In this document: positions 18,605 to 57,631 of the stretch, piece after piece
Position numbering within the stretch: the stretch's first letter is position 1
Layout of the letters: every line of letters begins with the position of its first letter
NCBI RefSeq assembly: GCF_902170785.1
Contig: NZ_CABHYG010000009.1
Span: 248,001-312,000 of the forward strand
Source: Yersinia proxima
Lineage (GTDB): Bacteria; Pseudomonadota; Gammaproteobacteria; Enterobacterales; Enterobacteriaceae
DNA: 64,000 nt
Direction: 5' to 3'
Notes under the pieces: generated by a model
What the model was told of the DNA's origin: nothing
The model's input: the letters and a program-made list of their open reading frames with translations, nothing else
Databases searched by the model: none
Position numbers and translations under genes: made by a program

Positions 18605-18709
18605 GCAGAGAGAACAGGCAGATCGTAAAGACGCCGTAAACCCTTCCCTGGGGGCTCGAGCCGCGCCGTCCTGGCGCGGACGCTTTACTCTTCTGCCTAT
18701 CCTCTCTGC
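18605..18709. repeat. Yersinia-type long palindromic repeat, copy 1 (inside the pdu operon)
   Basis: Nested stems: GCAGAGAG (18605-18612) with CTCTCTGC (18702-18709); AGGCAGA (18616-18622) with TCTGCCT (18692-18698); GTAAAG (18625-18630) with CTTTAC (18683-18688); and an inner hairpin CCGCGCC / GGCGCGG (18661-18667 / 18673-18679). The same core with CCCTGGGGGCTCGAGCC occurs at 48515 and 57527. It resembles the palindromic miniature elements described in Yersinia (YPAL), but I cannot confirm the family name. Confidence 0.85.
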
Positions 18710-18778
18710 TCCAGATCGAGGCCTCGGGATATGTCAGCAGTATGGATTAATCAATGGTCAGCCATCTTAGGAACGGAT

Positions 18779-20605
18779 ATGCGGTATATAGCAGGCATTG
18801 ACATCGGCAACTCATCAACGGAAGTGGCATTGGCACAATGTGCGGCTGAGGGTCAGTTGCACTTTGTTACCAGTACCCTAACCGAAACCACGGGTATCAA
18901 AGGGACGCAACGCAACATTTTTGGCATCACTAAGGCGCTGAATATGTTGGTGGAAAAGGCTGGTATCGCACTCAGCGATATCAATCTTATCCGCATCAAC
19001 GAGGCGACCCCGGTCATTGGTGATGTGGCGATGGAAACCATAACTGAAACCATTATCACTGAATCCACCATGATCGGTCACAACCCTAAAACTCCCGGTG
19101 GACTGGGGTTAGGCGTTGGGCTGACCATCACGATTGATGAGTTGGTCACGCGAGACCCTAACCAGCCTTACATTCTGGTGGTGCCCTCTGCAGTTGATTT
19201 TGCCGATGTGGCGGCCGTGGTCAATGCTGCTAACGGCGCTGGATACCGCATTACCGCGATTATCCTGCAACGGGATGATGGTGTTCTGGTCAGCAACCGC
19301 CTCACACATCCCCTGCCCATCGTGGATGAGGTGCTGCATATCGACCGTATTCCAATGGGGATGTTGGCAGCGGTTGAAGTTGCCATGCCGGGTCAGGTGA
19401 TTGAAACCCTCTCTAACCCTTATGGCATTGCCACGGTGTTCGGATTGAGTGCGGAAGAAACCAAAAACATCGTTCCGGTGGCGCGGGCTTTGATTGGCAC
19501 ACGCTCCGCAGTGGTGGTGAAAACCCCGGAGGGCGATGTTAAAGCCCGCGCCATTCCGGCTGGGCATCTGGAGCTATTTGCTAACGGCCGCACTGTACGG
19601 GTGGATGTCGCAACCGGTGCTGAAGCCATCATGACCGCCGTCAACAGCTTCCGACATCTGGATAATGTCAGTGGTGAAGCGGGCACTAATATCGGCGGCA
19701 TGCTCGAACACGTCCGCCAAACTATGGCGGAACTGACCAACAAACCGACCAATGAGATCTTCATTCAGGATCTGCTGGCAGTTGACACTGCGGTACCGGT
19801 CAACGTCATTGGTGGCTTGGCGGGTGAATTCTCGCTCGAACAGGCGGTGGGTATTGCCTCTATGGTGAAATCTGACCGCTTACAAATGGCCCATATCGCC
19901 AGTGAAATCGAAAAGACGCTGAATATTGATGTACAGGTCGGGGGGGCGGAAGCCGAAGCGGCGATACTCGGCGCGCTAACCACACCAGGGACGCGACGGC
20001 CACTCGCCATCCTCGATTTAGGGGCAGGATCTACCGATGCCTCAATCATCAATGCGCAAGGTCAAATTGTTGCCACCCATCTGGCGGGTGCTGGCGATAT
20101 GGTCACGATGATAATCGCCTCTGAGCTGGATCTCCAAGACCGATATTTGGCCGAAGACATCAAAAAATATCCCTTGGCAAAAGTGGAAAGTCTGTTCCAC
20201 CTGCGCCACGAAGACGGCAGCGTTCAGTTCTTCCCACAACCGCTACCACCCGAAGTTTTTGCCCGATTAGTGGTGGTTAAACCGGAAGGGTTGGTGCCAC
20301 TACCGGGAGATTACGCACTGGAAAAAGTACGCAATATCCGCCGCAGCGCGAAAGAGCGGGTGTTTGTCACCAATGCGCTTCGCGCGCTACGTCAAGTCAG
20401 TCCGACCGGCAATATCCGCGATATCCCCTTCGTGGTGCTGGTTGGCGGCTCGTCGCTGGACTTCGAAATCCCGCAATTGGTCACCGACGCACTTTCTCAC
20501 TACAAGCTGGTGGCCGGTCGCGGCAATATCCGCGCCAGCGAAGGCCCGCGTAATGCGGTTGCCACCGGATTGATTCTGTCCTGGCAACGGGAGAATCACG
20601 CATGA
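18779..20605 (+). CDS. pduG: PduG, diol dehydratase-reactivating factor large subunit
   Basis: ATP-dependent chaperone-like subunit that releases inactivated cobalamin from PduCDE, 608 aa. It has the actin/Hsp70-type phosphate loops YIAGIDIGNSSTEVAL (residues 3-18) and LAILDLGAGSTDASI. The ATG at 18779 (MRYIAGIDIG) has AGGA 8 nt upstream and matches the family start; an in-frame ATG at 18731 would add 16 unrelated residues. It overlaps pduH by 4 nt. Confidence 0.97.
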   Translation: MRYIAGIDIGNSSTEVALAQCAAEGQLHFVTSTLTETTGIKGTQRNIFGITKALNMLVEKAGIALSDINLIRINEATPVIGDVAMETITETIITESTMIGHNPKTPGGLGLGVGLTITIDELVTRDPNQPYILVVPSAVDFADVAAVVNAANGAGYRITAIILQRDDGVLVSNRLTHPLPIVDEVLHIDRIPMGMLAAVEVAMPGQVIETLSNPYGIATVFGLSAEETKNIVPVARALIGTRSAVVVKTPEGDVKARAIPAGHLELFANGRTVRVDVATGAEAIMTAVNSFRHLDNVSGEAGTNIGGMLEHVRQTMAELTNKPTNEIFIQDLLAVDTAVPVNVIGGLAGEFSLEQAVGIASMVKSDRLQMAHIASEIEKTLNIDVQVGGAEAEAAILGALTTPGTRRPLAILDLGAGSTDASIINAQGQIVATHLAGAGDMVTMIIASELDLQDRYLAEDIKKYPLAKVESLFHLRHEDGSVQFFPQPLPPEVFARLVVVKPEGLVPLPGDYALEKVRNIRRSAKERVFVTNALRALRQVSPTGNIRDIPFVVLVGGSSLDFEIPQLVTDALSHYKLVAGRGNIRASEGPRNAVATGLILSWQRENHA

Positions 20606-20943
20606 ACTTTACCCAAGATGCACCCGCAATTGTTATCAGCCTCACCTCGCCAACACCCGAGGCGGTCTGGCACCAAGTGTTACTAGGGATTGAGGAAGAA
20701 GGCATTCCCTGGCAGTGGCAGCAAGACGATGACACGGATGCCATTCTCCGCGCCTGGCAGGCGGCGACCCGCTCACCACTATTGGTAGGGCTGGCGTGTT
20801 CTGCCGACGAAGTTATCGTGCATTTTCGTCATTTACCCCCCGCCAGCCCGCTGTTCCGGCAGCCACTGGCACAAGACGAAGACCCATTACGGCGGCTAGG
20901 CAACAACGCCGCCCGATTAGTCAAAGGCTTACCGTTTAAGTAA
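20602..20943 (+). CDS. pduH: PduH, diol dehydratase-reactivating factor small subunit
   Basis: Small partner of PduG, 113 aa, structurally related to the dehydratase beta subunit, which it displaces during coenzyme exchange. Recognisable blocks are [12 protein letters not shown] (residues 29-40), [18 protein letters not shown] and the C-terminal [16 protein letters not shown]. It overlaps pduG by ATGA. Confidence 0.94.
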
Positions 20944-20974
20944 TCACACTCAAATTAACAAGGAACTCATATCT

Positions 20975-21250
20975 ATGAACAACGCACTGGGATTAATCGA
21001 AACCAAAGGGCTGGTCGCTGCCATCGAAGCGGCTGATGCCATGGTCAAATCTGCCAACGTACAGCTCGTGGGATACGAAAAAATCGGTTCCGGCTTGGTG
21101 ACTGTCATGGTTCGCGGCGATGTCGGCGCAGTTAAAGCGGCGGTTGATGCCGGTTCTGCGGCGGCCAGCGCGGTGGGTGAAGTGAAATCTTGCCATGTGA
21201 TCCCACGCCCACACAGCGATGTAGAAGCCATTTTACCGACCTCTGCCTAA
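20975..21250 (+). CDS. pduJ: PduJ, hexameric microcompartment shell protein
   Basis: BMC-H protein of 91 aa, close paralogue of PduA (same [40 protein letters not shown] and [13 protein letters not shown] blocks). It is an abundant facet protein. AAGGAACT lies upstream of the ATG. The pduA and pduJ reading frames are similar enough at DNA level to be a possible site of gene conversion. Confidence 0.96.
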
Positions 21251-21271
21251 GGGTAAGAAGAGGAGCACCGC

Positions 21272-21874
21272 GTGAAAACGTCACTGGGTTTACTTGAAGT
21301 TAGCGGTCTGGCGCTGGCGATTGGTGCAGCGGATGTCATGGCAAAAGCGGCATCCGTCACCCTGATTGGAATAGAAAAAACCAACGGCTCCGGCTGGATG
21401 TTAATCCGTCTAACCGGTGATGTGGCTTCCGTTCAGGCGGCAATCAGTACCGGAGCCGCCTTTGCCCAACTGCATCAAGGGCTGGTCTCAAGTGCGGTGC
21501 TGGCCCGTCCGGCAGATCCCCTAATGGCGTATTGGCAAGCGCCACACATTGAGCCAGTCGCCACTGAAGCCACCACCTTAAGCGAACCTGCGCAACAGGT
21601 TGCCGCCGAAGAGGTTATGACGGAAAGCCCTACCATCGAGGAGTGCGATGAAGCTGAAGCCCCACGATCTGCCGATACCGCCACCGACGATGAACCAGAA
21701 ATTGCCTTGGGTGTGGCAATAATGGACTTGGATGTCGCAATAAAAAGTGCAGAAAGTGAGGCCCCGCCAGCTCCTCGTGTGAGCTGCAATCTCTGCCTCG
21801 ACCCGGCTTGCCGACGCCATAAAGGTGAGCCTCGCTTTCGCTGTATTCACTTGGGTAAACGAGGAAAAGTCTGA
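21272..21874 (+). CDS. pduK: PduK, shell protein with C-terminal metal-binding tail
   Basis: BMC-H domain (residues about 1-90, LGLLEVSGLALAIGAADVM) followed by an acidic, Ala/Glu-rich linker (about 90-165) and a C-terminal tail with CNLCLDPACRRHKG and a fourth Cys near FRC, a pattern fit for an iron-sulfur or zinc site. Total 200 aa. The start is GTG (21272-21274) with GAGGAG upstream. PduK is a minor shell component in Salmonella. The stop overlaps the pduL start by 1 nt. Confidence 0.94.
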   Translation: MKTSLGLLEVSGLALAIGAADVMAKAASVTLIGIEKTNGSGWMLIRLTGDVASVQAAISTGAAFAQLHQGLVSSAVLARPADPLMAYWQAPHIEPVATEATTLSEPAQQVAAEEVMTESPTIEECDEAEAPRSADTATDDEPEIALGVAIMDLDVAIKSAESEAPPAPRVSCNLCLDPACRRHKGEPRFRCIHLGKRGKV

Positions 21875-22521
21875 TGGAAAAAGCGTTACTGGAACCCGTT
21901 GTCAGTAAGATCCTCGACGAAATGCGTCTTCGTCCGATCCCGCTTGGGGTTTCCAATCGACACCTGCACCTTTCGGTGCAGGATTACCAACAATTGTTCC
22001 CCGATCAGCCGCTGATTGAGAAAAAAGCACTGCTCCAGCCAGGCCAGTTCGCCGCTGCTCAGACGGTGACCTTGGTCGGGCCGAAAGGCAGCTTGAAGAA
22101 TGTCCGTATTCTGGGGCCACTGCGCAGCTACAGTCAGGTTGAGATCTCTCGTACCGACGCCCGCACACTGGGTATCAATGCCCCTCTGCGGATGTCGGGC
22201 AATCTGGCTGACACGCCAGCTATCCGGCTGGTCAGCCCCTATGGCGAGTTGGAATTGCCACAGGGTGTGATTGTGGCATTGCGCCATATCCATATGTCGC
22301 CACTGGATGCCCTTATCTATCGGGTCAAACACGGCGATCGGGTGCAAGTGGCCATCCACGGCAGTGGCCGCCGGTTGATCATGGATGATGTTGCTATCCG
22401 CGTTTCACCCCAAATGAAACTGGAAATGCACATTGATACCGACGAGGCCAATGCCGCCGGAGCCGATGACCCGGCGGCTTTTGCGACGTTGCTACCCCTT
22501 ACACGGACAACGCAACCATGA
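21874..22521 (+). CDS. pduL: PduL, phosphate propanoyltransferase
   Basis: Converts propionyl-CoA and phosphate to propionyl phosphate, recycling CoA in the lumen; unrelated to Pta. The 215-aa protein has two zinc-binding histidine pairs at residues 30/32 (SNRHLHLS) and 138/140 (LRHIHMSP), and GPLRSYSQVEISRTDA in between. The N-terminal amphipathic MEKALLEPVVSKILDEM looks like an encapsulation peptide. It overlaps pduM by 4 nt. Confidence 0.96.
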   Translation: MEKALLEPVVSKILDEMRLRPIPLGVSNRHLHLSVQDYQQLFPDQPLIEKKALLQPGQFAAAQTVTLVGPKGSLKNVRILGPLRSYSQVEISRTDARTLGINAPLRMSGNLADTPAIRLVSPYGELELPQGVIVALRHIHMSPLDALIYRVKHGDRVQVAIHGSGRRLIMDDVAIRVSPQMKLEMHIDTDEANAAGADDPAAFATLLPLTRTTQP

Positions 22522-23015
22522 ATCTGACTCAGGCGCAAACCGAACAGCTGGTCAGCCAGATTGTCACGCGGTTGGCTGAGCGCGAACGCCGGGTTCACGC
22601 CCTGCTATTGCCTCAGCTACGCGCCGGGCTGGATACATCGGTATTCCTGCACCATGCCACGCTGCATTTAATGTTGCCGGATTTGGCGTTTATCCATCAA
22701 CTGGCGCAGTTCGATACCAACTGTCCTGCGGTGGTGGCCTTGAACGAGGCCTGGTCGTGGGGCATGAAAGTGCATATCAGCCTGCACCGTCAACTGTTAC
22801 CCGCCCTGCCCATGACGGCACTGCGCCCGTTGCCGCTAACTTTCAGTGACAACCAAGGTCTGGCGATACGGCTACATGCAAGCAAGGTATTGAGTTATCG
22901 CGATATTGCCACACTTGACCCCGGCTGGTTGCTGATTGCCAGCTCTACGTTGGTTACACCGCTGGCGCAGGAAACATTGTCAGCCCGTCACATTCAACTG
23001 TTAAGGCAGGAGTAA
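22518..23015 (+). CDS. pduM: PduM, microcompartment structural protein
   Basis: 165-aa protein at the PduM position between PduL and PduN. In Salmonella it is needed for properly formed compartments but has no known enzymatic role. The sequence is less conserved than its neighbours; FLHHATLHLMLPDLAFI and the C-terminal LDPGWLLIASSTLVTPLA are the clearest blocks. Assignment relies mostly on position and length. Confidence 0.88.
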   Translation: MNLTQAQTEQLVSQIVTRLAERERRVHALLLPQLRAGLDTSVFLHHATLHLMLPDLAFIHQLAQFDTNCPAVVALNEAWSWGMKVHISLHRQLLPALPMTALRPLPLTFSDNQGLAIRLHASKVLSYRDIATLDPGWLLIASSTLVTPLAQETLSARHIQLLRQE

Positions 23016-23018
23016 ATC

Positions 23019-23294
23019 ATGCAACTGGCCCGAGTGGTAGGTTCGGTGGTTTCAACACAAAAGTCGCCGACGCTGATCGGTAAGAAACTACTGTTGGTGC
23101 GCCGTGTCGCCGGTGATGGCTCGCTGCCTCCAGACAGCAACACGCCGGATGAAGTGGCGGTCGACTCTGTTGGCGCAGGTCAAGGTGAACTGGTGCTACT
23201 GTCCGGTGGTTCCAGTGCTCGGCGCGTTTTTGCCGAACCGAATGATGCCATCGACCTGGCGATTGTCGCCATCGTCGATGAATGCTCTTACTGA
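23019..23294 (+). CDS. pduN: PduN, pentameric vertex protein
   Basis: EutN/CcmL-family BMC-P protein, 91 aa, that caps the vertices of the polyhedral shell. It starts [27 protein letters not shown] and contains [20 protein letters not shown], the conserved turn of the family. It is 3 nt from pduM and 15 nt before pduO. Confidence 0.96.
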
Positions 23295-23309
23295 TTAAGC
23301 GGTGATTTT

Positions 23310-24326
23310 ATGAGCATCTATACCAAAACAGGTGATGCGGGCACTACCGCCCTGTTCACCGGTCAACGCGTCAAAAAAAGTCATCCTCGGGTGGAAACCT
23401 ACGGCACCTTGGATGAACTGAATGCGGCACTCAGCCTGTGTGCCCGCGTGACACAAGGTGAAGAAAACCTTCAGTTACTCGATGCCGTACAACATCAGCT
23501 GTTTTATTTCAGCGCCGAACTGGCCAGTGAGGGCAGCGAACCCCCACCCAGTGGGCGAAAAAGTATTAGTGAAACCGATATTCAAGCACTGGAACAGGCG
23601 GTGGACCGCTGCATGGCGCAACTGCCACCGGTGCACGGTTTTATCCTGCCCGGTAACACTGAAGCTGGGAGCCGCTTACATTTTGCCCGCACCCTGGCGC
23701 GGCGCTGCGAGCGGCGGTTAATCGAACTGGCCGAGCAAGTGCCGGTGCGTCCGGTGTTATTGCAGTATCTCAACCGGCTATCGGACTGCTTGTATGCCTT
23801 GGCCCGCGATGAAGACCAACGCCAGACATTGCAACAAACAGCACAAACCGTGCTGGCACGCTATTTAGCCGCAACCACGGAGAAACTCGTTGCGACCACT
23901 CAGCCCCCGAGCGCTGGACTGGGATTTTCTGATGTTCACCAACTGGTTAAGTTAGCTGTTGCAGCCGCCATGAAATTACAAATTGCCGTAGTTGTGGCAC
24001 TGGCCGACCGCCACGGCAACATGATTATGACCTACCGCATGCCCGATACCTTGCTGGTCAGCAGCGAGCTGGCACCGAAAAAAGCCTGGACCGCTGTCGC
24101 CTTGAAAACCGCTACCCACCAACTCAGTGCTGCCATTCAACCGGGGGCCGATCTGTTCCAACTAGAAGCCAGCACTGGCGGCAAAGTGGTGAGTTTTGGC
24201 GGGGGCTACCCACTGTGGCGTGACGGCCAATTGGTGGGAGGTTTAGGGATAAGCGGCGGTAGCGTCGAACAAGATATGCACATAGCAGAAGCGGCCATAT
24301 CGGCTTTACATCTGAGGAATGAATAA
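23310..24326 (+). CDS. pduO: PduO, ATP:cob(I)alamin adenosyltransferase
   Basis: Makes adenosylcobalamin for PduCDE. The N-terminal PduO-type domain (residues 1-190) has the ATP loop KTGDAGTTALFTGQRVKK, then RCERRLIELAEQ and LNRLSDCLYALAR. The C-terminal GlcG/HbpS-like domain (about 205-338, LVKLAVAAAMKLQIAVVVALADRHG) is the flavin/haem-binding family also fused to PduO in Salmonella. The stop overlaps the pduP start by 1 nt. Confidence 0.96.
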   Translation: MSIYTKTGDAGTTALFTGQRVKKSHPRVETYGTLDELNAALSLCARVTQGEENLQLLDAVQHQLFYFSAELASEGSEPPPSGRKSISETDIQALEQAVDRCMAQLPPVHGFILPGNTEAGSRLHFARTLARRCERRLIELAEQVPVRPVLLQYLNRLSDCLYALARDEDQRQTLQQTAQTVLARYLAATTEKLVATTQPPSAGLGFSDVHQLVKLAVAAAMKLQIAVVVALADRHGNMIMTYRMPDTLLVSSELAPKKAWTAVALKTATHQLSAAIQPGADLFQLEASTGGKVVSFGGGYPLWRDGQLVGGLGISGGSVEQDMHIAEAAISALHLRNE

Positions 24327-25714
24327 TGAATACCAATGACCTTGAATCGCTCATTCGCACTATCCTCACCGAGCAACTGACGCCGGTCACGGCCCCTGCC
24401 TCCAGCGCCATTTTTGCCAGCGTGGATGAAGCCATTAATGCTGCTCACAGCGCGTTTTTACGCTATCAGCAAAGCCCGATGAAAACTCGCAGCGCCATTA
24501 TCCGCGCTATCCGTGAGCAATTAAAGCCACAACTTGTCTCTCTGTCCGAGCGCGGTGCCAGTGAAACCGGCATGGGTAATAAAGAAGATAAACTCCTGAA
24601 AAACAAAGCTGCACTGGAAAACACACCGGGTATTGAAGACCTATCTACCACCGCACTGACCGGTGATGGCGGCATGGTGTTATTCGAGTATTCACCCTTC
24701 GGCGTTATTGGTTCAGTCGCCCCCAGTACTAACCCGACCGAAACCATTATTAATAACAGCATCAGTATGTTGGCAGCGGGTAATGCAGTCTATTTCAGCC
24801 CCCACCCCGGAGCTAAAGCCGTGTCACTGGATCTCATCGCCCAAATTGAAGCGATCATTTTCAACAGTTGCGGCATTCGCAATCTGGTGGTGACAGTAAA
24901 AGAACCGAGTTTCGAAGCCACCCAACAGATGATGGCACACGACAAAATTGCCTTGCTCGCTATTACTGGTGGCCCGGCCATTGTGGCAATGGGCATGAAA
25001 AGCGGCAAGAAAGTGATTGGTGCCGGTGCGGGTAACCCACCCTGTCTAGTGGATGAAACCGCTGAGTTAGTTAAAGCGGCGCAGGATATCGTGGCGGGCG
25101 CTTCATTTGACTACAACCTGCCGTGCATTGCAGAGAAAAGCCTGATCGTGGTGGAAAGTGTTGCCGACCGTTTATTGCAACAGATGCAGGCCTTCGATGC
25201 ATTACTGATAAGCAATCCGCAAGAGGTCGACAGCTTACGCAACACCTGCCTGACGCCGCAGGGTCATGCCAATAAAAATCTGGTGGGTAAAAGCCCCATT
25301 GAACTGCTGAAAGCCGCTGGCATCACCTGCCCGGCTAAAGCCCCGCGCCTGTTGTTGGTCGAAGTGGCGGGTGATGATCCACTGGTCACCACCGAACAAT
25401 TGATGCCGCTGTTACCGGTGGTGCGGGTAAAGGATTTTGATGCGGCCCTGGCATTGGCATTGCACGTCGAGGGCGGCCTGCATCATACCGCAACCATGCA
25501 CTCGCAAAATGTCTCGCGCTTGAATCTGGCTGCACGTTTGTTGCAAACCTCCATTTTTGTCAAAAATGGCCCGTCCTATGCCGGGATAGGTGTCGGCGGT
25601 GAAGGCTTTACCACCTTTACTATTGCCACCCCGACTGGTGAGGGTACGACCTCGGCGCGTACCTTTGCACGTCAACGCCGCTGTGTACTGACTAATGGTT
25701 TCTCTATTCGCTGA
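24326..25714 (+). CDS. pduP: PduP, CoA-acylating propionaldehyde dehydrogenase
   Basis: Oxidises propionaldehyde to propionyl-CoA with NAD+ in the lumen. The 462-aa aldehyde dehydrogenase carries the catalytic Cys at residue 267 (FDYNLPCIAEKS) and the nucleotide block GNPPCLVDETA. Residues 1-18 (MNTNDLESLIRTILTEQL) form the amphipathic encapsulation peptide for which PduP is the classic example. Confidence 0.97.
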   Translation: MNTNDLESLIRTILTEQLTPVTAPASSAIFASVDEAINAAHSAFLRYQQSPMKTRSAIIRAIREQLKPQLVSLSERGASETGMGNKEDKLLKNKAALENTPGIEDLSTTALTGDGGMVLFEYSPFGVIGSVAPSTNPTETIINNSISMLAAGNAVYFSPHPGAKAVSLDLIAQIEAIIFNSCGIRNLVVTVKEPSFEATQQMMAHDKIALLAITGGPAIVAMGMKSGKKVIGAGAGNPPCLVDETAELVKAAQDIVAGASFDYNLPCIAEKSLIVVESVADRLLQQMQAFDALLISNPQEVDSLRNTCLTPQGHANKNLVGKSPIELLKAAGITCPAKAPRLLLVEVAGDDPLVTTEQLMPLLPVVRVKDFDAALALALHVEGGLHHTATMHSQNVSRLNLAARLLQTSIFVKNGPSYAGIGVGGEGFTTFTIATPTGEGTTSARTFARQRRCVLTNGFSIR

Positions 25715-25724
25715 GCGAGGATGT

Positions 25725-26840
25725 ATGAAAACTTTTTTCCTGCAAACACGCATTTATAGCGGGGAAGGCAGCCTCAAGGTGCTGCAACGCTTTCATCAGC
25801 GCAAAATCTGGATAGTTTGCGATGGCTTTTTAGCCACCTCTCCGCTGCTGGATAAACTGAGACAAGCCTTGCCAACCGACAACCAGATTACCCTGTTCAG
25901 CGATATCACGCCGGATCCGAATATCGCCACCGTGGTGAAGGGGATTGAACAGATGCAAGCGCTGCGCCCCGACATAGTGATCGGTTTTGGCGGTGGTTCG
26001 GCACTGGATGCCGCCAAAGCCATTGTCTGGTTTAGCCGTAAACAAGGGCTGGAGATAGAAACCTGTATCGCCATCCCGACCACCAGCGGGACCGGCTCTG
26101 AGGTCACCAGCGCTTGTGTGATAAGTGATCCAGAGAAAAGCATTAAATACCCCATCTTTGACGATGAAATTTATCCTGATATCGCCATTTTGGATGCCGC
26201 ACTGGTGGCGAGCGTGCCCGCCGTCATTACCGCCAATACCGGATTGGATGTGTTGACCCATGCGCTGGAGGCCTATGTATCACCGCGCGCCAGTGATTTT
26301 ACCGATGCACTGGCAGAAAAAGCGGTGCAACTGGTATTTCGCCATCTGGCAACCGCCTGTCGTAAAGGTGACTGCCTGATAACCCGCGGCAAAATGCACA
26401 ATGCCTCGACGCTGGCCGGCATAGCATTCAGTCAGGCGGGTCTGGGGATCAATCATGCCATCGCCCACCAATTGGGGGGGCAATTCCACATTGCTCACGG
26501 CTTAGCGAATGCCCTGTTGCTGGTGCCGGTGATTCGCTTTAACGCCGCAGATGCGCGAGCGCGTAAGCGTTATGCAAGATTGGCGAAGCTGTGCCATTTC
26601 AGCCCGGCCAATGGCGATGATCGCAGTGCAGTCAATCAGCTGGTTCACCAAATTGAGCAGCTAAAACGCCAGTGCGGGCTACCTCAGCCGTTGGCGGCAA
26701 TGAAAGTTAATGAGCGCCAATTGCAGCAACATCTCCCCGACATGATTGCAGCAGCCCTTGCCGACATCACATTGCGCACCAACCCGCGACCAGCCAGCGA
26801 CCAGGATATCCGTGGGATTATCGAGGCGCTTTATGAGTGA
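25725..26840 (+). CDS. pduQ: PduQ, iron-dependent 1-propanol dehydrogenase
   Basis: Reduces propionaldehyde to 1-propanol and regenerates NAD+ for PduP. Class III (iron) alcohol dehydrogenase, 371 aa, with GFGGGSALDAAKA for NAD binding and metal-ligand histidines in HALEAYVSPRASD and HAIAHQLGGQFHIAHGLANA. I start at the ATG at 25725, preceded by GAGG; the in-frame upstream codon at 25695 lies inside pduP. The 3' end overlaps pduS by 8 nt. Confidence 0.96.
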   Translation: MKTFFLQTRIYSGEGSLKVLQRFHQRKIWIVCDGFLATSPLLDKLRQALPTDNQITLFSDITPDPNIATVVKGIEQMQALRPDIVIGFGGGSALDAAKAIVWFSRKQGLEIETCIAIPTTSGTGSEVTSACVISDPEKSIKYPIFDDEIYPDIAILDAALVASVPAVITANTGLDVLTHALEAYVSPRASDFTDALAEKAVQLVFRHLATACRKGDCLITRGKMHNASTLAGIAFSQAGLGINHAIAHQLGGQFHIAHGLANALLLVPVIRFNAADARARKRYARLAKLCHFSPANGDDRSAVNQLVHQIEQLKRQCGLPQPLAAMKVNERQLQQHLPDMIAAALADITLRTNPRPASDQDIRGIIEALYE

Positions 26841-28224
26841 TATGCAGATATCTGAGGCTAACGTGCTGCACTCGCCACCCGCTTATGGCGAACTGACACC
26901 CTGTGATGCAGAGACTATCCAACAGCGTGTGCGTAACGCTGGTGTGGTCGGAGCCGGTGGTGCCGGGTTCCCCACAGCGGTGAAGTTACAGGCACAGGCC
27001 GAGATTTTCCTGGTCAATGCCGCTGAGTGTGAACCGATGTTGAAAGTGGATCAGCAATTGATCCCACGTCAGGCGGCACGGCTGGTACGCGGCGTGCTGT
27101 ATGGCATGAAAGCCACCGGCGCATGCGAAGGCATCATTGCACTGAAAGCTAAATATGAGGAGGCCATCACAGCACTGACACCGCTGCTGCCACCACAGAT
27201 TCGGTTGCATATTTTACCCGATGTTTACCCCGCCGGAGATGAAGTGATCACCATCTGGCTGGCAACCGGCCGCCGGGTTCCACCTGCGGCGCTGCCCATC
27301 AGCATTGGGGTGGTGGTGAATAACGTGCAAACCCTGCTCAACGTGGCCCGCGCCGTTGAACAGCAGTGGCCGGTCACCCGCCGAACGCTCACCGTGAATG
27401 GTGCCGTAGCCCGGCCATTGACCTTGACGGTGCCACTGGGCACGTCACTGCGGGAAGTGTTGGCTTTGGCGGGTGGCGCGACCATTCATAACCCTGCTTA
27501 TATTAATGGTGGCCCGATGATGGGCCATGCCCTGCATGACCTTGATCAGCCCGTCACCAAAACCACTGGCGGCCTGCTGGTACTGCCTGCTGATCATTTG
27601 CTAATTACCCGCCGTGCCCGTAGTGATAAGGATGTGCTTGCCATCGCCCGCACCGTCTGCGAACAGTGCCGTATGTGTACCGAACTCTGCCCGCGCCACC
27701 TTATCGGCCATGAATTACCGCCGCACCTGTTGGTACGGGCGATTATCTACCAGCAAGTCGCCACGCCAGATATTTTACTCAGCGCCCTGACCTGCTCGGA
27801 ATGCAGTCTGTGTGAAAGCTATGCCTGCCCGGTGGATATCTCGCCGATGCGCATTAACCGCCTGCTGAAAACTCAGTTACGTGCGCAGGGTGCCCGCTAT
27901 CAAGGGGAGCTGCGCGAAGCTGACCCGATGGCGAAATACCGCATGGTGCCAACAACACGGCTGATCGCCCGCCTGGACTTAACCGACTGGTATCAGGCTG
28001 CACCCTTTAGTGAGGAGCCCTATCAGCCACAACAGGTGATATTGCCCTTGCGCCAGCATATCGGTGCTGCCGCAGAGGCCATCGTCGCAGTGGGTGATCG
28101 GGTAGAACAGGGCCAATTAATTGGGCAAATCCCGCATAACGCCTTGGGTGCACCACTGCACGCCAGTATCAGCGGCGTGGTTACCGCCATCGATGGCAGT
28201 GCCATCACCATAAATCGCGGCTGA
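26833..28224 (+). CDS. pduS: PduS, cobalamin reductase flavo-iron-sulfur protein
   Basis: Reduces cob(III)alamin towards cob(I)alamin for PduO. The 463-aa protein has the RnfC-like nucleotide/flavin region GVVGAGGAGFPTAVKL near residues 38-53 and two 4Fe-4S motifs with cysteines 276, 279, 282, 286 and 321, 324, 327, 332. ATG at 26833 (MSDMQIS) overlaps pduQ by 8 nt; a second ATG at 26842 is also possible. The longer reading from 26746 is inside pduQ and is not supported. Confidence 0.95.
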   Translation: MSDMQISEANVLHSPPAYGELTPCDAETIQQRVRNAGVVGAGGAGFPTAVKLQAQAEIFLVNAAECEPMLKVDQQLIPRQAARLVRGVLYGMKATGACEGIIALKAKYEEAITALTPLLPPQIRLHILPDVYPAGDEVITIWLATGRRVPPAALPISIGVVVNNVQTLLNVARAVEQQWPVTRRTLTVNGAVARPLTLTVPLGTSLREVLALAGGATIHNPAYINGGPMMGHALHDLDQPVTKTTGGLLVLPADHLLITRRARSDKDVLAIARTVCEQCRMCTELCPRHLIGHELPPHLLVRAIIYQQVATPDILLSALTCSECSLCESYACPVDISPMRINRLLKTQLRAQGARYQGELREADPMAKYRMVPTTRLIARLDLTDWYQAAPFSEEPYQPQQVILPLRQHIGAAAEAIVAVGDRVEQGQLIGQIPHNALGAPLHASISGVVTAIDGSAITINRG

Positions 28225-28249
28225 CGGTATTTTTTAAAGAGGAATCGGC

Positions 28250-28807: not shown

Positions 28808-29157
28808 TGGAAGCAAATAGCACCCCCGAGCGCGTGATCCAGGAATATGTTCCCGGTAAACAGATAACCCTGGCGCACCTGATAGCTAACCCTAACAAGG
28901 CGCTTTATAAAAAACTGGGGCTAAACGATGTCAGCAGCGCCATTGGCATTTTGACCATTACCCCCAGTGAAGCCTCGATTATTGCCAGTGATATCGCCAC
29001 CAAATCCGGCGCAGTCGAGATTGGTTTTATTGATCGATTTACCGGTGCCGTGGTGTTTACCGGCGATGTTTCCGCGGTGGAATACGCATTGAAACAGGTG
29101 ATTCACACCTTGGGCGACATGATGAAATTCACTGCCTGCCCGATGACCCGGACCTGA
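28807..29157 (+). CDS. pduU: PduU, circularly permuted shell protein
   Basis: Permuted BMC-H protein, 116 aa, whose N-terminal strands form a small barrel over the pore. Blocks [20 protein letters not shown] and [19 protein letters not shown] are typical. Two adjacent ATGs exist (28804 and 28807). I chose the second because AGGAGG (28797-28802) is only 1 nt from the first and because [14 protein letters not shown] matches the family start. Confidence 0.95.
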
Positions 29158-29161
29158 TGCC

Positions 29162-29603: not shown

Positions 29604-29605
29604 AA

Positions 29606-30862
<1,257 letters not shown>

Positions 30863-30870
30863 GAGGCAAT

Positions 30871-31653: not shown

Positions 31654-31685
31654 ATGCACAACCTAAATAGGGGAATAACGCGGCA

Positions 31686-34308: not shown

Positions 34309-34818
34309 GAAAAGAGTTCACTGGCGGGGAATACCATAAACTCACGCCAGATGAAAACTCATCAAACCAGAATGTCCATGTAAATAGCGCAGTTATTACC
34401 CTTCCGCCTACCATTTTTATGCAACTCTCTTTGTTCTCCCCCTCAGAATCATGACGCCAGTCACAAACAGGGAAAGCAGCTATTTTATCCATGTAAATAG
34501 CATTTATAGATATGGGGAAAATGGCTATCGAGGCAGTAGAGTCCACCTACAGGAAATGTAGTGCAGATGTAAAATCTGCTTCCTGATAAATCTTCATTTT
34601 TTTAAAAACATAAATAAAACTTAAGTCATAGCCAAGTTACTTCGAGATGCAGGTAGGCGGCAACCGTGCAAATCCCCAGGAGCTTAGATAACTAAGTAAC
34701 TGGGGTGAGCTAGGGCAGCCAACACCCCTGCATCTTGAAGGGCGACGGGTATACACAGAATATTGCGTCAACACCTAACTACGATAGCCTCAACCTACAT
34801 TAGCTCCGGGAGCCTTAG
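34309..34818. other. Intergenic region between the GNAT gene and the ABC transporter operon
   Basis: I see no convincing gene. A phrase CCATGTAAATAGC occurs twice (near 34376 and 34490), indicating a small local duplication, and an ERIC element fills 34628-34752. The promoter for the transporter operon should lie between the ERIC element and 34819, but I could not define it. Confidence 0.6.
34628..34752. repeat. ERIC element, copy 2
   Basis: 125-bp element with end sequences ATAGCC and GGGTAT and the internal ERIC blocks AATCCCCAGGAGCTTAG, CTAAGTAACTGGGGTGAGC and GGCAGCCAACACCCCTGCATC. It lies 66 nt upstream of the binding-protein gene at 34819, so it may be within or next to the 5' leader of the transporter operon. 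Confidence 0.92.
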
Positions 34819-44422: not shown

Positions 44423-44528
44423 CTTTCTTTCCTCATAACGGCGATTTTCGTATGTGAATAATCGCTCGCGGACCTGTTTATCTATCCGGATCGTTGTCCG
44501 GCCTCTTGATTTGTGAAAACACGAATGC

Positions 44529-44560
44529 AAAAAAATAACCGACGCGTTTAAACGTCGGTT
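44529..44560 (-). terminator. Terminator after hcxA
   Basis: On the minus strand AACCGACG (44560-44553) pairs with CGTCGGTT (44544-44537) over an 8-nt loop and is followed by ATTTTTTT (44536-44529). It ends the hcxA transcript before the plaP leader, or attenuates read-through. Confidence 0.85.
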
Positions 44561-44670
44561 ATTGCATGGCGCGTATTTTGCCCTAACTTGAGAGCAAAAA
44601 ACAAGATGTTAAACCGCTTGAAACAATATTCTTATGGCAGTTTGATCTAAACGGCTATTCCCACGTGTTA

Positions 44671-47493: not shown

Positions 47494-48488
47494 GTAAAGA
47501 AATACCCCTGCCAGACGCTCAGCCGTGGCGTCACCAGTTGTTTGATTTTCTCTACAAATGGGGGATGTTACTCACCGTTGTGGCGCTAATCGCGTTATTT
47601 GGGCTAGCCTCAGACAATTTTCTTGATCCCAACAATATCATCAACATTTTACGATCCATTGCCATTGTGACGGTGATTGCCATCGGCGTGTCGATTTCCC
47701 TGTCGATTGGCGGCTTTGACCTATCGGTGGGTTCCACCGCGTCGCTGGCGAATGCCATCGTCGTATCACTGTTTGTCTGGTACGGGTTTGGCACTACCGG
47801 AGCCATCATCCTGACCTTGCTTATTTGTACTCTGGTGGGGCTGTTTAATGCCTTTCTGATTGTGGTGCTGAAAATCCCCGATATGCTGGCAACCCTGGCC
47901 AGCCTGTTTGTGATTCAGGGCGTAGCCATGACGTACAGCTATGGCGGCTCTATCACCCAGAATATGCTGCTACCCAACGGCGATATGGCGGAAGGCGTCA
48001 TTCCTGAGATGTTTTCAGCGCTGGGTCAAGTGCCGGTGATAGTGCTTATTATGTTGGCGGTAACGATTGTCGTGCAGTTGTATTTGTCGCTGACCAAACA
48101 TGGCCGTCGGATGTATGCCATCGGTGGGAATCCGGAAGCGGCACGTTTGGCAGGCATTCGAACCGTGCGTTACCGGGTGCTGGCTTATGTATTGTCATCT
48201 CTGCTGGCGGCACTGGGCGGAATTTTGCTGGCATCGAGGATTGGCTCGTCACAAGTCAATGCTGGCGGCGGCTATCTGATGGATGCCGTAGCTGCGGCCT
48301 ATATTGGTTTTTCACTCGCAGGTTCCGGCAAACCCAATGCCTTCGGCACCTTAATTGGCGCGATTATCCTTGGTGTGCTGCAAAACGGGCTGGTGATGCT
48401 GTCAGTGCCTTACTACGCGATGGATATCATCAAAGGATTGGTTCTGGCGATGGCGCTGGCGCTGACCTATATTCATCAGAAGCGGTGA
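47490..48488 (+). CDS. Sugar-type ABC permease, second system
   Basis: 332-aa RbsC-like permease: SIGGFDLSVGSTASLANAIV near the N-terminal third and GRRMYAIGGNPEAARLAGIRTVRYR before the last helices. Only one permease and one ATPase are present; no binding protein gene lies on either side within the window. A palindromic repeat starts about 25 nt downstream. Confidence 0.9.
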   Translation: MSKEIPLPDAQPWRHQLFDFLYKWGMLLTVVALIALFGLASDNFLDPNNIINILRSIAIVTVIAIGVSISLSIGGFDLSVGSTASLANAIVVSLFVWYGFGTTGAIILTLLICTLVGLFNAFLIVVLKIPDMLATLASLFVIQGVAMTYSYGGSITQNMLLPNGDMAEGVIPEMFSALGQVPVIVLIMLAVTIVVQLYLSLTKHGRRMYAIGGNPEAARLAGIRTVRYRVLAYVLSSLLAALGGILLASRIGSSQVNAGGGYLMDAVAAAYIGFSLAGSGKPNAFGTLIGAIILGVLQNGLVMLSVPYYAMDIIKGLVLAMALALTYIHQKR

Positions 48489-48514
48489 TATATAAATTAA
48501 CCTGATCGCAACCC

Positions 48515-48638
48515 AGCGGAGTGAACAGGTAGATCATAAAGACGCCACACTTCTTTTGTTAAAACAAGCCTTCCCTGGGGGCTCGAGCCGCGCCCTCCCT
48601 GGCGCGGACACTTTACTCTTCTACCTGCCCTCACCGCT
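48515..48638. repeat. Yersinia-type long palindromic repeat, copy 2
   Basis: Same core as at 18605: CAGGTAGA (48526-48533) pairs with TCTACCTG (48620-48627), outer AGCG/GTGA halves (48515-48524) with TCAC/CGCT (48631-48638), and the inner CCGCGCC / GGCGCGG hairpin (48588-48594 / 48601-48607). It carries an extra insert with TTGTT-AA-AACAA near 48557-48568. It lies 26 nt after the permease stop. Confidence 0.85.
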
Positions 48639-48700
48639 TCTGATCGAGTTCATGCTGATAGCCTGCGCTTTTTTAGAATATTCAAGGTGTAGCGAGCTAA

Positions 48701-48803
48701 GTCAGACTGAGTGCGTACAGCGCGCAGTACCCGGAGCGTACACGTAGTACGTGAGGAGTACGAGCACTGCACAATCTCAGTATGACAACGCGCAGTAGCC
48801 GAT
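48701..48803. repeat. Second dyad-rich repeat between the ABC permease and yeeZ
   Basis: GACTGAG (48705-48711) faces CTCAGT (48776-48781). Between them are GTACACGTAGTACGTGAGGAG and a CGCGCAGTA that recurs at 48789-48797. The terminal GCGCAGTAGCCG (48790-48801) also occurs 57674-57685, just before the gnd stop, so it is a shared tail downstream of palindrome copies 2 and 3. Confidence 0.55.
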
Positions 48804-48810
48804 AAGATAA

Positions 48811-49638
48811 TTAATTCAAAGGCATTCGATTTGGGTCTGGGTATTGGTACTCGAACCCCAACTCACTGCAAATCTTACTGCCATCAATCTCGCGTGGTGC
48901 TTCCTCTGTTTCTTCTGGTGCAAATTCAGGTGGTGTTAGTTGTAACGCACGTGCGCACTCAGGGTAAAAATCACGTTTACGCGGATGGGCTGGCGCGCAC
49001 AGGTTGTAAATATGGCCGCCTCTGGGCAGATTGAGCAGTAATTCGATGGCGGAGATGACATCTTCCTGATGCACCAAATTCACGCCCTGCGAACCACCTT
49101 TTACATTGGTTTTACCCGCAAGGAAACGGCCCGGATGGCGCTCCGCCCCCACCAGCCCCGCCAGACGTAAAATATCTACCGAGGTATTGGGTAATTTATG
49201 TAACCATAACTCAAGTTCCATCAGCGTTTTACCTGCCGTAGTCACCGGTTGCAGTGGCGAACTCTCTTTGATGCGGCCACTGGTTTCGCCATAAACCGAA
49301 GTAGAACTGGTAAAAATAATGCGCGGCACACCGAACGCTAACGCACTGTCGACCACCATCTGCACCGCTTGAAAATACTGTTCACCTCCATCAACTGTAC
49401 GGCTGGCTGGCAAAGTGATAACCAGTGCATCCACCGTCATTAACTGTTCTAAGTCATCCGGGTCGCAAATCAGCTCCGGCGTCAGTTGCAGTTGATAGCA
49501 ATTAATTCCGCTCATTCTGGCAGCTTCAACGCCATCAGGCGTGGTTTTACTTCCGACAACCTGCACGCCACGACGAATCAATGATTGTGCCAGTGGCATG
49601 CCCAGCCAGCCCAACCCAATAATGGCTACTTTTTTCAT
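48811..49638 (-). CDS. yeeZ: YeeZ, SDR-like NAD(P)-binding protein
   Basis: 275-aa extended short-chain dehydrogenase-like protein. Dinucleotide motif VAIIGLGWLGMPLAQSL at residues 4-20; TSSTSVYGETSGRIKE contains the Ser and Tyr of an SDR active site; the end ELGFEYQYPDPNRMPL matches E. coli YeeZ. Function is not established. Start at 49636-49638 (MKKVAI), with GAGGG upstream; in-frame ATGs further up are less likely. It is next to his in E. coli as well. Confidence 0.92.
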   Translation of the reverse strand: MKKVAIIGLGWLGMPLAQSLIRRGVQVVGSKTTPDGVEAARMSGINCYQLQLTPELICDPDDLEQLMTVDALVITLPASRTVDGGEQYFQAVQMVVDSALAFGVPRIIFTSSTSVYGETSGRIKESSPLQPVTTAGKTLMELELWLHKLPNTSVDILRLAGLVGAERHPGRFLAGKTNVKGGSQGVNLVHQEDVISAIELLLNLPRGGHIYNLCAPAHPRKRDFYPECARALQLTPPEFAPEETEEAPREIDGSKICSELGFEYQYPDPNRMPLN

Positions 49639-49916
49639 CTCAATGACCCTCGAGCGGTTCATACCAACGACAAACTCCATACTAATAACCTACGCCAACC
49701 AATGTCACCTAACAATTACTTGATATTATGCGCGTATTTTTATTTGTCGGCGTAATGACTATACGTAACAATTTCCTGCTTAAACTGACATAAAAATAAG
49801 AGATAACCGCTGAAAAGAAAACGATTACTGGCCGATAAACCGCAACTTACCACGGTGAAATAAAGCCATCAGGTGAAAAAAAGGTTGCGCGCTACCTGCA
49901 GGATGGTTTACGTTGA

Positions 49917-49946
49917 TTGACAGAAATTATGGCACGTCACAAATAT
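49917..49946 (+). promoter_or_regulatory. Possible his operon promoter
   Basis: TTGACA (49917-49922) and AAATAT (49941-49946) are 18 nt apart and would start transcription about 35-40 nt before hisL. The -35 is perfect, the -10 weak. No other good pair lies between yeeZ and hisL. Assigned by eye only. Confidence 0.4.
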
Positions 49947-49989
49947 GGCTATTCTGATTATGTCAGGAAGCCCAAACAGAGAAGCAACT

Positions 49990-50037
49990 ATGAATCGCGT
50001 TCAATTTAATCACCATCATCACCATCATCCTGACTAG
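49990..50037 (+). CDS. hisL: HisL, his operon leader peptide
   Basis: Fifteen-codon peptide [15 protein letters not shown] then TAG. Six consecutive His codons lie just upstream of the attenuator and make translation sense charged tRNA-His, as in E. coli and Salmonella (which have seven). It is too short for normal gene finding. Confidence 0.96.
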
Positions 50038-50108
50038 TCTTGCAGGCCGATGTGTGCTGGAAGACGGTTAACGAATCTTCCAGGTGGCGGTAGAACGCAA
50101 TAGAGAAA

Positions 50109-50141
50109 GCCCTCGGAAGATTATCTTCCGAGGGCTTTTTT
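50109..50141 (+). terminator. his attenuator terminator
   Basis: GCCCTCGGAAGA (50109-50120) pairs perfectly with TCTTCCGAGGGC (50124-50135), 3-nt loop, followed by T6. The upstream TCTTCCAGG/CTGGAAGA segments (50057-50083) form the alternative pairings expected of a his attenuator. Ribosome stalling in hisL should prevent this hairpin. Confidence 0.95.
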
Positions 50142-50156
50142 GTTGCTCACCATTTT

Positions 50157-50284
<128 letters not shown>

Positions 50285-50305
50285 AGTTAAATTAGAGGAT
50301 TTACC

Positions 50306-51205
50306 ATGCTAGATAAAACACGTTTACGCATTGCGATGCAGAAATCAGGTCGCCTCAGTGACGATTGCCATGAGCTGTTGTCTCGCTGCGGGATTAAAAT
50401 CAATTTACAACAACAACGCCTGATCGCCTTTGCTGAAAATATGCCAATCGATATCCTGCGTGTACGTGATGACGATATCCCAGGGCTGGTGATGGATGGA
50501 GTAGTTGATTTAGGGATCATTGGCGAAAATGTACTGGAAGAAGAGTTACTGAGCCGCCGTGCTCAAGGCGAAGACCCGCGTTACTTCACCTTACGCCGTC
50601 TGGATTTCGGTGGTTGCCGCTTGTCACTGGCTGCGTCGCTGGATACCGAATATACCGGTCCACAATGTTTACAAAATAAGCGTATTGCCACCTCTTACCC
50701 ACACATTTTAAAGCAATACCTTGATAAACAAGGTGTAACTTTTAAATCCTGTTTGCTGAACGGTTCAGTTGAAGTGGCACCACGTGCCGGTTTGGCCGAC
50801 GTCATCTGTGATCTGGTATCAACCGGTGCCACCCTGGAAGCTAACGGCCTGCGCGAAGTCGAAGTTATTTATCGCTCTAAAGCCTGCCTGATTCAGCGCG
50901 ATGGCGAAATGCCAGCCGCGAAGCAAGAGCTGATTGACCGCCTGATGACCCGAATTCAGGGGGTGATTCAAGCACGCGAATCCAAATACATCATGATGCA
51001 CGCGCCAAGTGAACGTCTGGACGAAATCATCACACTGCTGCCGGGTGCCGAGCGCCCCACCATTCTGCCATTAGCCGGTGATAAGAGTCGCGTAGCGATG
51101 CACATGGTGAGTAGCGAAACTCTGTTCTGGGAAACCATGGAAAAACTGAAGGCGCTGGGTGCCAGCTCTATTCTGGTATTACCGATTGAAAAGATGATGG
51201 AGTAA
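50306..51205 (+). CDS. hisG: HisG, ATP phosphoribosyltransferase
   Basis: First enzyme of histidine synthesis, long (self-regulated) form of 299 aa: catalytic N-terminal lobes ([38 protein letters not shown]) and the C-terminal ACT-like regulatory domain (from about residue 225) that binds histidine. TAGAGGA precedes the ATG. It is 3 nt from hisD. Confidence 0.98.
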
Positions 51206-51208
51206 GAA

Positions 51209-56803
<5,595 letters not shown>

Positions 56804-56810
<7 letters not shown>

Positions 56811-57418
56811 GTGAACAACAAATTAACCAACTGGATTGGGAAAAAGTCGACAATCTGATGCCAGCCATCGTTCAGCATGCCGTATCTGGCGAAGTTCTGA
56901 TGATGGGGTACATGAACAAAGAAGCGCTGGCAGTGACAGAAGAAACCGGCAAAGTCACTTTTTTCTCTCGCACTAAACAGCGTTTATGGACCAAAGGCGA
57001 AAGCTCTGGCCATTTCCTCAATGTCGTTAATATCTACCCAGACTGCGACAATGATACCCTGCTGATTCTGGTCAATCCTATCGGCCCAACTTGTCATTTA
57101 GGCAATAATAGTTGCTTTGCACCGGCTGCCAGCGACTGGAGCTTCTTGTATCAACTGGAACAGTTGTTAGCCTCACGTAAATCAGCAGATCCAGCCAGTT
57201 CCTACACCGCAAAACTGTATGCCAGCGGGACTAAACGTATCGCACAGAAAGTGGGCGAAGAAGGGGTAGAAACTGCCCTCGCCGCGACAGTGAATGACCG
57301 CGAAGAGCTAACAAATGAAGCATCAGATCTGATGTATCACTTGCTGGTGTTATTGCAGGATCAGGACTTGGATCTGAGTAAAGTGATAGGCCGCCTGCGC
57401 GAACGCCACGAGAAGTAA
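56804..57418 (+). CDS. hisI: HisIE, bifunctional PR-AMP cyclohydrolase / PR-ATP pyrophosphatase
   Basis: 204-aa fusion. N-terminal cyclohydrolase: [34 protein letters not shown] region and zinc-site cysteines in DCDNDTLLI and [13 protein letters not shown]-terminal pyrophosphatase (about 115-204): [20 protein letters not shown]. Last gene of the operon, followed by a terminator. The start is GTG (56804-56806). Confidence 0.97.
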
Positions 57419-57443
57419 TTGCCTGATTGCCTTTCTTATCAGC

Positions 57444-57480
57444 AAAAAAACGCCCTCGACTCAGCATCGGGGGCGTTTTT
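57444..57480 (+). terminator. his operon terminator
   Basis: AAAAAACGCCCTCGA (from 57445) pairs with TCGGGGGCGTTTTT (to 57480): stems ACGCCC/GGGCGT and CGA/TCG with one mismatch, then T5. Symmetric A and T flanks allow function on both strands. Confidence 0.85.
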
Positions 57481-57526
57481 ATTAAGGCAAATATCAAATA
57501 CTGAAGTTTTGGTTGCCCGCAGTAAG

Positions 57527-57631
57527 ACAGGAGAAACACTCAGATCGTAAAGACGCTATTAATCCATCCCTGGAGGCTCGAGCCGCGCCGTCCTGGCGCG
57601 GACGCTTTACTCTTCTGAGCATTCCACCTGT
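57527..57631. repeat. Yersinia-type long palindromic repeat, copy 3
   Basis: Between convergent his and gnd. Outer ACAGG (57527-57531) with CCTGT (57627-57631); CTCAGA (57539-57544) with TCTGAG (57614-57619); GTAAAG with CTTTAC; inner CCGCGCC / GGCGCGG (57583-57589 / 57595-57601). The arm at CTCAGA differs from copies 1 and 2 but is still self-complementary. Confidence 0.85.

Follow-up and report, generated by a model that had tools for sequence, protein, structure and literature searches.

YPAL, also described as RU-2 (De Gregorio 2006; Delihas 2007), is a mobile repeat of about 167 bp from Yersinia genomes, for which the accessible parts of four papers report target duplications of variable length, dyad-symmetric targets and folding of the RNA (PMC2847712, PMC2229807, PMC2759123, PMC2267715). 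The available text of the last one gives an RNAz P of 1.00 for the Y. pestis family (PMC2267715). In the parts of the YPAL literature that were examined, no transposase is assigned to the element and no reason is given for the conserved fold. Three copies are present in the window analysed here, a stretch of 64,000 nucleotides of Yersinia proxima (contig NZ_CABHYG010000009.1, positions 248,001 to 312,000, forward strand). Their analysis suggests that YPAL may be a miniature element of the IS1182 type with a structured interior module, and that RNA from the minus strand of this module may be a ligand of CsrA, an interpretation put forward here with slightly less than even confidence. Compared with the published accounts, the new features are a fold of the minus strand, the duplication of a whole terminator hairpin, ends of the IS1182 family and an interior that recurs throughout the class.

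The Rfam family RF02770 (Ysr224) covers about two thirds of the element and matches all three window copies, but it is modelled as a small RNA (sRNA) of the plus strand, and copy 1 alone exceeds the cut-off of 70 bits (18581-18686, + strand, 79.1 bits; copy 3 55.8 bits, copy 2 34.1 bits). Ysr224 is counted among the most prevalent bacterial sRNAs in the accessible portion of PMC9029176; since it is a stretch of the YPAL repeat, genome counts of this "sRNA" are largely repeat counts. The insertion sequences (IS) of the IS1182 family, including IS1272, resemble YPAL in their terminal repeats and hairpin targets, and a cruciform model for IS1272 has a branch in which the whole stem-loop is duplicated; unlike them, YPAL has no transposase gene, and IS1272 is reported to replace the stem-loop and not to duplicate it (PMC5678879, as far as its text was available). 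The decoy RNAs CsrB, CsrC and RsmZ likewise present GGA in hairpin loops, with more than one site per RNA, whereas YPAL has two sites per element, is a mobile multicopy DNA and is only a putative CsrA ligand. The E. coli repeat RNAs RrA, RrB and RrF lie beside terminators, have two GGA loops and are bound by CsrA in vitro according to the available part of PMC8144298. They are tRNA-linked and fixed behind rRNA operons, and are a parallel to YPAL, not an established relative.

Arm pairing in the Yersinia copies

The three window stretches are copies of YPAL. All of them are recovered by a 167-column nhmmer model built from 15 copies of the same genome, and this assignment, already suggested in the first-pass annotation, rests on length, host and published copy tables. 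The palindromes had been placed at 18605-18709, 48515-48638 and 57527-57631, with a shared core and arms of differing sequence; these were found as described, except that copy 2 has ATAAAG and not GTAAAG opposite CTTTAC. The elements are larger than had been noted, and the arms regarded as outer are internal to YPAL. Gene conversion with flanking host DNA, considered beforehand as a source of the arm differences, fails because the arms lie inside the element. The idea that the variable arms are host terminator stems split by insertion was also rejected, the host stems being outside the 167 bp and the arms inside.

Copies were gathered by searches, patterns and sequence stretches. BLAST of the Y. 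proxima genome with copy 1 returned 33 pieces, and YPAL matches were present in 23 of 25 genomes of the genus. From 294 nhmmer hits, 251 of them unique, 209 near full-length copies were retained, leaving out 42 unique copies with more than 12 gap columns. An exact core pattern that fixes loop 2 (at least 113 stretches) was the source of 93 of the 209, and the other 116 were counted separately. Copy numbers per genome are lower bounds, at most 33 or 12 candidates being scored per genome, and searches spanning more than 40 genomes ran with stricter filters. The folding energy of the consensus is -63.2 kcal/mol for the plus and -71.6 kcal/mol for the minus strand. Each window copy folds better than all of its 200 dinucleotide shuffles on both strands (z for +/-: copy 1 -5.36/-7.47, copy 2 -3.24/-4.12, copy 3 -3.46/-4.67); on the minus strand the arms pair further, giving unbroken runs of 18 pairs for copy 1 and 12 for copy 3, while the plus stems are interrupted.

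The arm, formed by columns 33-41 with 116-124, contains in the 209 copies 480 cells with a minus-strand wobble (A-C on the plus strand) and 11 with a plus-strand wobble, in addition to 1346 Watson-Crick cells, 34 others and 10 gaps. Each wobble type is one transition away from a Watson-Crick pair, and thus the neutral expectation is 1:1; the same count for the stem pairs outside the arm gives 74 and 90, respectively. The bias in the arm is independent of gene orientation: minus- to plus-wobble counts are 105:4 where the plus strand is sense, 64:0 where the minus strand is sense and 220:6 between convergent genes. Events were also counted on the branches of a tree inferred by FastTree with the arm columns removed. 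In the arm, 53 changes led from a Watson-Crick pair to minus-wobble and 11 to plus-wobble (binomial P=1e-7), compared with 48:38 in other stems; on internal branches the ratio is 24:0 (other stems 8:3) and at the tips 29:11 (other stems 40:35). Pair 40/117, which separates copies 1 and 2, is C-G in 100 of the 209 copies, C-A in 87, T-A in 17, C-C in 4, a gap in one and never T-G. C-A, a mismatch on the plus strand and G-U on the minus strand, is the commonest state in the 21 rows of the Y. proxima genome. The tree changes at this pair are C-G to C-A (5), C-A to T-A (6), C-A to C-G (10) and C-A to C-C (4), with T-A to C-A and a direct C-G to T-A once each. Transitions and transversions stand at 321:16 in the right arm versus 448:623 in unpaired columns. 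These patterns indicate that the Yersinia arm is constrained chiefly via wobble and base class, and weakly by two-sided change, and they assign the folded structure in Yersinia to the minus strand. More generally, strand-specific tolerance of wobble may reveal which strand of a palindrome folds.

Copies at the same site differ in 62 of 682 arm letters; of 60 changed pairs, 46 are exchanges between Watson-Crick and minus-wobble and 4 concern plus-wobble. Their use as a clean test of change after insertion was set aside: pairs with both flanks alike include 22 in opposite and 58 in the same orientation, so that same-site copies can be independent insertions.

As regards two-sided change, three copies are too few to show the compensation that had been suggested for the window. 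The ranking by mutual information mainly reflected two subfamilies (top pairs 63/72 and 62/73), and therefore a tree-based null was adopted, in which 24 pairs were tested against a simulated phylogenetic null of our own design (P values uncorrected). The strongest signals (P=0.0007) come from the hairpin pairs 62/73, 63/72 and 64/71 and the stem pair 48/108, those for 48/108 and 64/71 resting on very few changes. Pairs 28/129 and 41/116 follow at about 0.003, and pairs 33/124 (0.02), 38/119 (0.03), 30/127 and 14/154 lie in the range 0.02-0.03. In the outer arms, covariation reaches these uncorrected levels at 33/124, 38/119 and 41/116 and is weak at 40/117, the pair originally pointed out (P=0.05); the remaining pairs of the 24, including the other five arm pairs, have no significant covariation. 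The inner hairpin has undergone concerted switches of several letters (CC/GG, TA/TA, AT/AT).

Ends, target duplications and the IS1182 family

In 200 copies both ends fall no more than six columns from those of the model. The junctions of 115 of them show a direct repeat, compared with a mean of 1.15 and a maximum of 5 for mismatched partners. Duplications of at least 11 bp occur in 109 of the 200 (median 18), and 89 of these 109 are self-complementary from their ends versus 15 of 109 control windows; in the best-scoring duplications listed, the repeat is an entire hairpin. The same sites have been used recurrently and in both orientations (the 58 and 22 pairs mentioned above). Structure and a mobile palindrome had been treated as alternatives, but YPAL is both mobile and structured. 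One locus (L271, genome G007) has the order hairpin-YPAL-hairpin-YPAL-hairpin, with one terminator hairpin throughout.

An intact transposase at locus L348 is an IS1182-family protein (NF033551, 505 bits; Pfam DDE_Tnp_1_6). The terminal repeats of its IS, TCAGACTGCTGAC(A/G)AA, match the right end of YPAL, and the IS is flanked by two copies of a terminator hairpin. The right end of YPAL agrees with that of the IS in 19 of 20 letters and the left end in 14 of 20; in copy 1, TCAGA is found three letters inward of the target repeat. Both ends were recognised in 12 of 16 IS loci examined, with the whole hairpin on both sides in 8 of the 12. An IS-type end, defined as at least 13 of 16 letters within 220 nt, accompanies 191 of the 209 YPAL copies and 10 of the 19 from other genera. 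It was found at none of 17 loci from the distant order, 31 loci from the class and 28 control windows; the absence from the order and class loci indicates that the folded module has a wider distribution than the IS1182-type element. The IS1182 link of YPAL is well supported by these sequence comparisons, and a literature search for YPAL and IS1182 together returned no paper. The shared ends and the shared target duplication suggest that an IS1182-family transposase would recognise YPAL ends, and insertion at the foot of an intrinsic-terminator hairpin would then duplicate the whole hairpin.

Relatives in the class and the putative CsrA sites

The Ysr224 model of Rfam matches 32 of 394 genomes in an order-wide search, 4 of them above the family cut-off. 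In another genus the arms differ from those of Yersinia yet pair, and more distant loci have only the core in common, their arms being unrelated in letters but complementary. This agrees with the earlier view that the arms keep pairing, and the molecule concerned is most likely a single-stranded nucleic acid. For an order-wide alignment, a twin TCC-T pattern was required of distant sequences (3 of 47 hits failed), and the passing hits gave 38 distinct stretches, 28 of which were joined with 6 Yersinia sequences to 34 rows. On the minus strand, 93.0% of cells are paired, compared with 73.3% in shuffled and at most 47.4% in slid alignments; 18 of 22 pairs vary on both sides, and there are 131 two-sided cells versus 35.4 shuffled and at most 29 slid. 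The middle hairpin GGCTCGAGCC was left out of the model structure, as it competes with a longer GC hairpin.

The resulting covariance model R1 represents the minus strand, and its E-values are rough. It matches all three window copies on that strand and 78 of 369 genomes (69 of 272 genera) of the gammaproteobacterial class. In the phylum it matches 32 of 398 genomes, 31 from the class and one outside it (G824, a weak match). In 31 class-wide matches, whose rows were aligned to the model itself, 96.6% of cells are paired (score 0.740 versus 0.177), and the model strand is the more stable fold at 23 of 30 class loci. The minus-wobble bias recurs in pairs beyond the modelled stretch: 26:5 in the class, 39:10 in genomes G663 and G498, and 16:2 in the distant order. 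By the sequence evidence, the compensated arms exemplify a rule that holds throughout the class. A proposal that the arms of distant genomes are locus-specific was withdrawn, as ten G498 copies have related arms.

A plasmid search with one distant element gave no match, and weak matches were obtained in 5 of 5,426 E. coli genomes. When 20 distant loci were scanned with Rfam, the elements themselves matched mostly Ysr224 below its cut-off, with one chance-level mir-266 match (L438), and outside the elements 6S, t44 and a short CsrC-like fragment (L451) were recorded. In genome G945 (L504:220-1584), six twin-GGA cores form a tandem array of 227-bp units. The GTAGGAGCGGCTTCAGCCGCGA stretch of this unit resembles a GTAG-tagged REP.

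On the minus strand both small hairpins have the following features: (i) a hexaloop ANGGAN; (ii) a closing C-G pair, giving C-ANGGAN-G; (iii) a distance of 24 columns between the two GGA. The plus-strand pattern TCCNT (ANGGA on the minus strand) is present in loop 1 of 110, loop 2 of 107 and both loops of 104 of the 116 copies obtained independently of the core pattern. When all 209 copies are counted, conservation at the loop positions A, G, G and A is 97.6 to 99.5%, compared with 61% and 52% for the intervening N positions. In the class-wide alignment, C, A, G, G, A and G of both loops are invariant or 97% conserved. Two CANGGANG are present in 29 of the 31 rows from the class and in 31 of the 34 from the order. 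The accessible part of PMC7652899 gives RUACARGGAUGU as the SELEX consensus of CsrA, an ANGGAN hexaloop for RsmE, and dual-site binding across 10 to 63 nt. A CsrA gene was found in all 17 gammaproteobacterial genomes tested that have YPAL or R1 matches, and a search for it in G824, outside the class, found none. No link between YPAL and CsrA was named in a broader literature search, no search being aimed at that pair.

By the evidence of sequence evolution, the interior of YPAL is a single-stranded fold of the minus strand that combines a long outer stem with a conserved middle stem and a pair of small hairpins. CsrA binding would be the most likely use of this fold. A minus-strand transcript with C-ANGGAN-G loops would bind CsrA/RsmA, either as a decoy or as a mark on the mRNA that carries it, and the outer arms would stay paired to hold both loops in place while their letters are free to change. 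Sequence evolution demonstrates the fold of the interior; CsrA binding, minus-strand expression and the mobilisation of YPAL are what we infer. A broader proposal, put forward more tentatively, is that of a mobile family across the Gammaproteobacteria, one strand of which may encode a twin-hairpin RNA that binds CsrA/RsmA. Being numerous in a genome, the elements would serve as a dispersed, expandable decoy for this global regulator, with outer arms that drift and keep their pairing. In Yersinia the module would have been adopted by a terminator-targeting and terminator-copying miniature element of the IS1182 type. Both the mobility and the fold of YPAL become testable: for the first, a transposase family can be named that agrees in its ends and in its duplication of the hairpin, and for the second, the loops conserved best show the motif of an identified protein. 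Should CsrA bind, mobile repeats would act straight on a global regulator, with an effect that scales with copy number, which varies by species.

Several observations weigh against this interpretation. Where a copy lies among genes in tandem, these are antisense to the folded strand more frequently than sense (52:27 in Yersinia, 14:4 in the class, 4:3 in the distant order), and hence read-through often yields the other strand; the published sRNA Ysr224 also sits on the plus strand, and G-T pairs are tolerated in single-stranded DNA (ssDNA) too. YPAL-like copies of other genera lack the strand bias, with 7:6 in the aligned part of 18 of 19 copies, and 23:24 in all 19 when the arms were extended by script, a count in which a bulge brings the innermost pairs into the wrong register and contributes roughly one of each kind per copy. 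PF13751 transposases were found in 3 of 25 genomes of the genus, and only one (G007) has matching ends, none being seen at loci L349 and L350 of the other two; the search of the Y. proxima genome returned no transposase. Window copies 1 and 3 are short by one loop letter, one loop being the five-letter AGGAC. One GGA hairpin stands on a 7-bp GC stem, and most CsrA SELEX ligands have four pairs or fewer (PMC7652899, available text). Beside the second GGA hairpin (L435-L463), GAGC and TTNACNGCG are invariant or almost so across the class, for which CsrA gives no explanation. The Rfam motif TwoAYGGAY gave no match at E 0.1 in the 20 loci scanned against Rfam.

Part of these observations could be accommodated if the folded object were ssDNA of the minus strand, serving mobility or a DNA-binding protein, the wobble pairs being G-T in DNA. 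This would account for a bias that is independent of orientation and strict on internal branches, as well as for the antisense tendency of the neighbours. It is rather unlikely, as the candidate transposase is a DDE enzyme (DDE_Tnp_1_6) and the module also occurs without nearby IS1182-type ends, at all 31 class and all 17 distant order loci. A folded single-stranded interior is not generally expected for a DDE transposase. It is similarly unlikely that YPAL RNA acts in cis only, as a hairpin of the 3' untranslated region which slows the decay of its own mRNA. This mRNA-decay view is reportedly credited in reviews to De Gregorio 2006. It fits the placement of the copies close behind stop codons, at median distances of 44 bp for a left gene pointing in (142 of 157 within 100 bp) and 49.5 bp for a right gene pointing in (107 of 132), and the available text of a review cites an influence of YPAL on RNA stability. 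A cis-only role predicts a bias on the sense strand, but that in Yersinia is on the minus strand in both orientations, absolute on internal branches (24:0) and weaker at the tips (29:11), as if selection acts on spreading lineages; the two conserved ANGGA loops would also be left without a reason.

An origin without selection, by quasipalindrome template switching or gene conversion copying one arm onto the other, appears very improbable. The concerted multi-letter switches in the inner hairpin, the differing variants at shared sites and the one of four sets outside Yersinia without strand bias all speak for it. Such copying predicts perfect pairs without strand preference, whereas one-strand wobble dominates in Yersinia and three further sets, and where variants differ at one site, separate insertions can account for them (22 opposite, 58 same). 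Finally, the window may simply hold ordinary YPAL copies that add nothing to the published accounts, since the accessible literature already describes the element together with its duplicated targets, their dyad symmetry and the folding of the RNA, with RNAz P=1.00 for the Y. pestis family (PMC2267715). This is improbable as well, as the strand bias, the twin ANGGA loops, the class-wide relatives and the IS1182 ends were not found in the parts of the YPAL literature examined.

Copies and neighbouring features in the window

The coordinates of the three copies and their parts are collected in the table below.

Table. YPAL copies in the 64,000-nucleotide window of Y. proxima
Feature	Coordinates	Strand	Remarks
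YPAL copy 1, whole element	18575..18744	- (strand bearing both GGA loops)	nhmmer extent 18581-18744
Copy 1, left target-site duplication GATTAATCAAT	18564..18574	.	11-bp direct repeat; includes pduE stop codon
Copy 1, right target-site duplication GATTAATCAAT	18745..18755	.	11-bp direct repeat
Copy 1, structured core and inner arms	18619..18695	-	model R1, 89.4 bits
Copy 1, first loop CAGGACG	18665..18672	-	minus-strand reading
Copy 1, second loop CAGGGAAG	18642..18649	-	minus-strand reading
YPAL copy 2	48515..48665	-	nhmmer extent; flanking genes convergent
Copy 2, structured core	48530..48623	-	model R1, 54.8 bits
YPAL copy 3	57529..57634	-	nhmmer extent; ends diverged
Copy 3, structured core	57541..57617	-	model R1, 84.6 bits

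The genes on either side of copy 1 are pduE-like (18045-18569) and pduG-like, the latter with a likely start at 18779. Among 18 genomes of the genus that have this locus, including that of Y. proxima, it is filled in G000, G004 and G001, and an empty site is present in G016. At the pduE locus of G024 (L133), both target repeats of copy 1 are kept and are separated by just five letters, an arrangement resembling the remnant of a deletion or excision. Copy 2 has about 16 extra nucleotides within one hairpin. A copy at this site is shared with G023, and G002 has a partial copy (25 rows, 4 without the neighbouring gene end). The arms at this site read AGGTAGA/TCTACCT in the Y. proxima genome versus GGGCAGA/TCTGCC in G023, a two-sided change at one site if the insertion was a single ancestral one. 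Copy 3 is placed between hisIE and the convergent gnd, behind the hisIE terminator; the insertion is common to G004 and G013, and its left half is present in G014 and G015 (25 rows). No target-site duplication was recognised for copies 2 and 3, the ends of which have diverged.

In many of the Yersinia genomes compared, the intergenic gaps where copies 2 and 3 lie are occupied by another repeat, GGCGTAGCGAGC...GAGCACTGC...CGCAGTAGCC, present in the window at 48685-48800. Sub-threshold matches to V_AS5 of Rfam were obtained at 50157-50277, 34626-34748 and 13838-13977, stretches which are perhaps ERIC-type repeats. Above the Rfam cut-offs, the window contains a cobalamin riboswitch (11247-11427, -), a histidine operon leader (50013-50143, +) and an STnc240 RNA (44527-44591, -).

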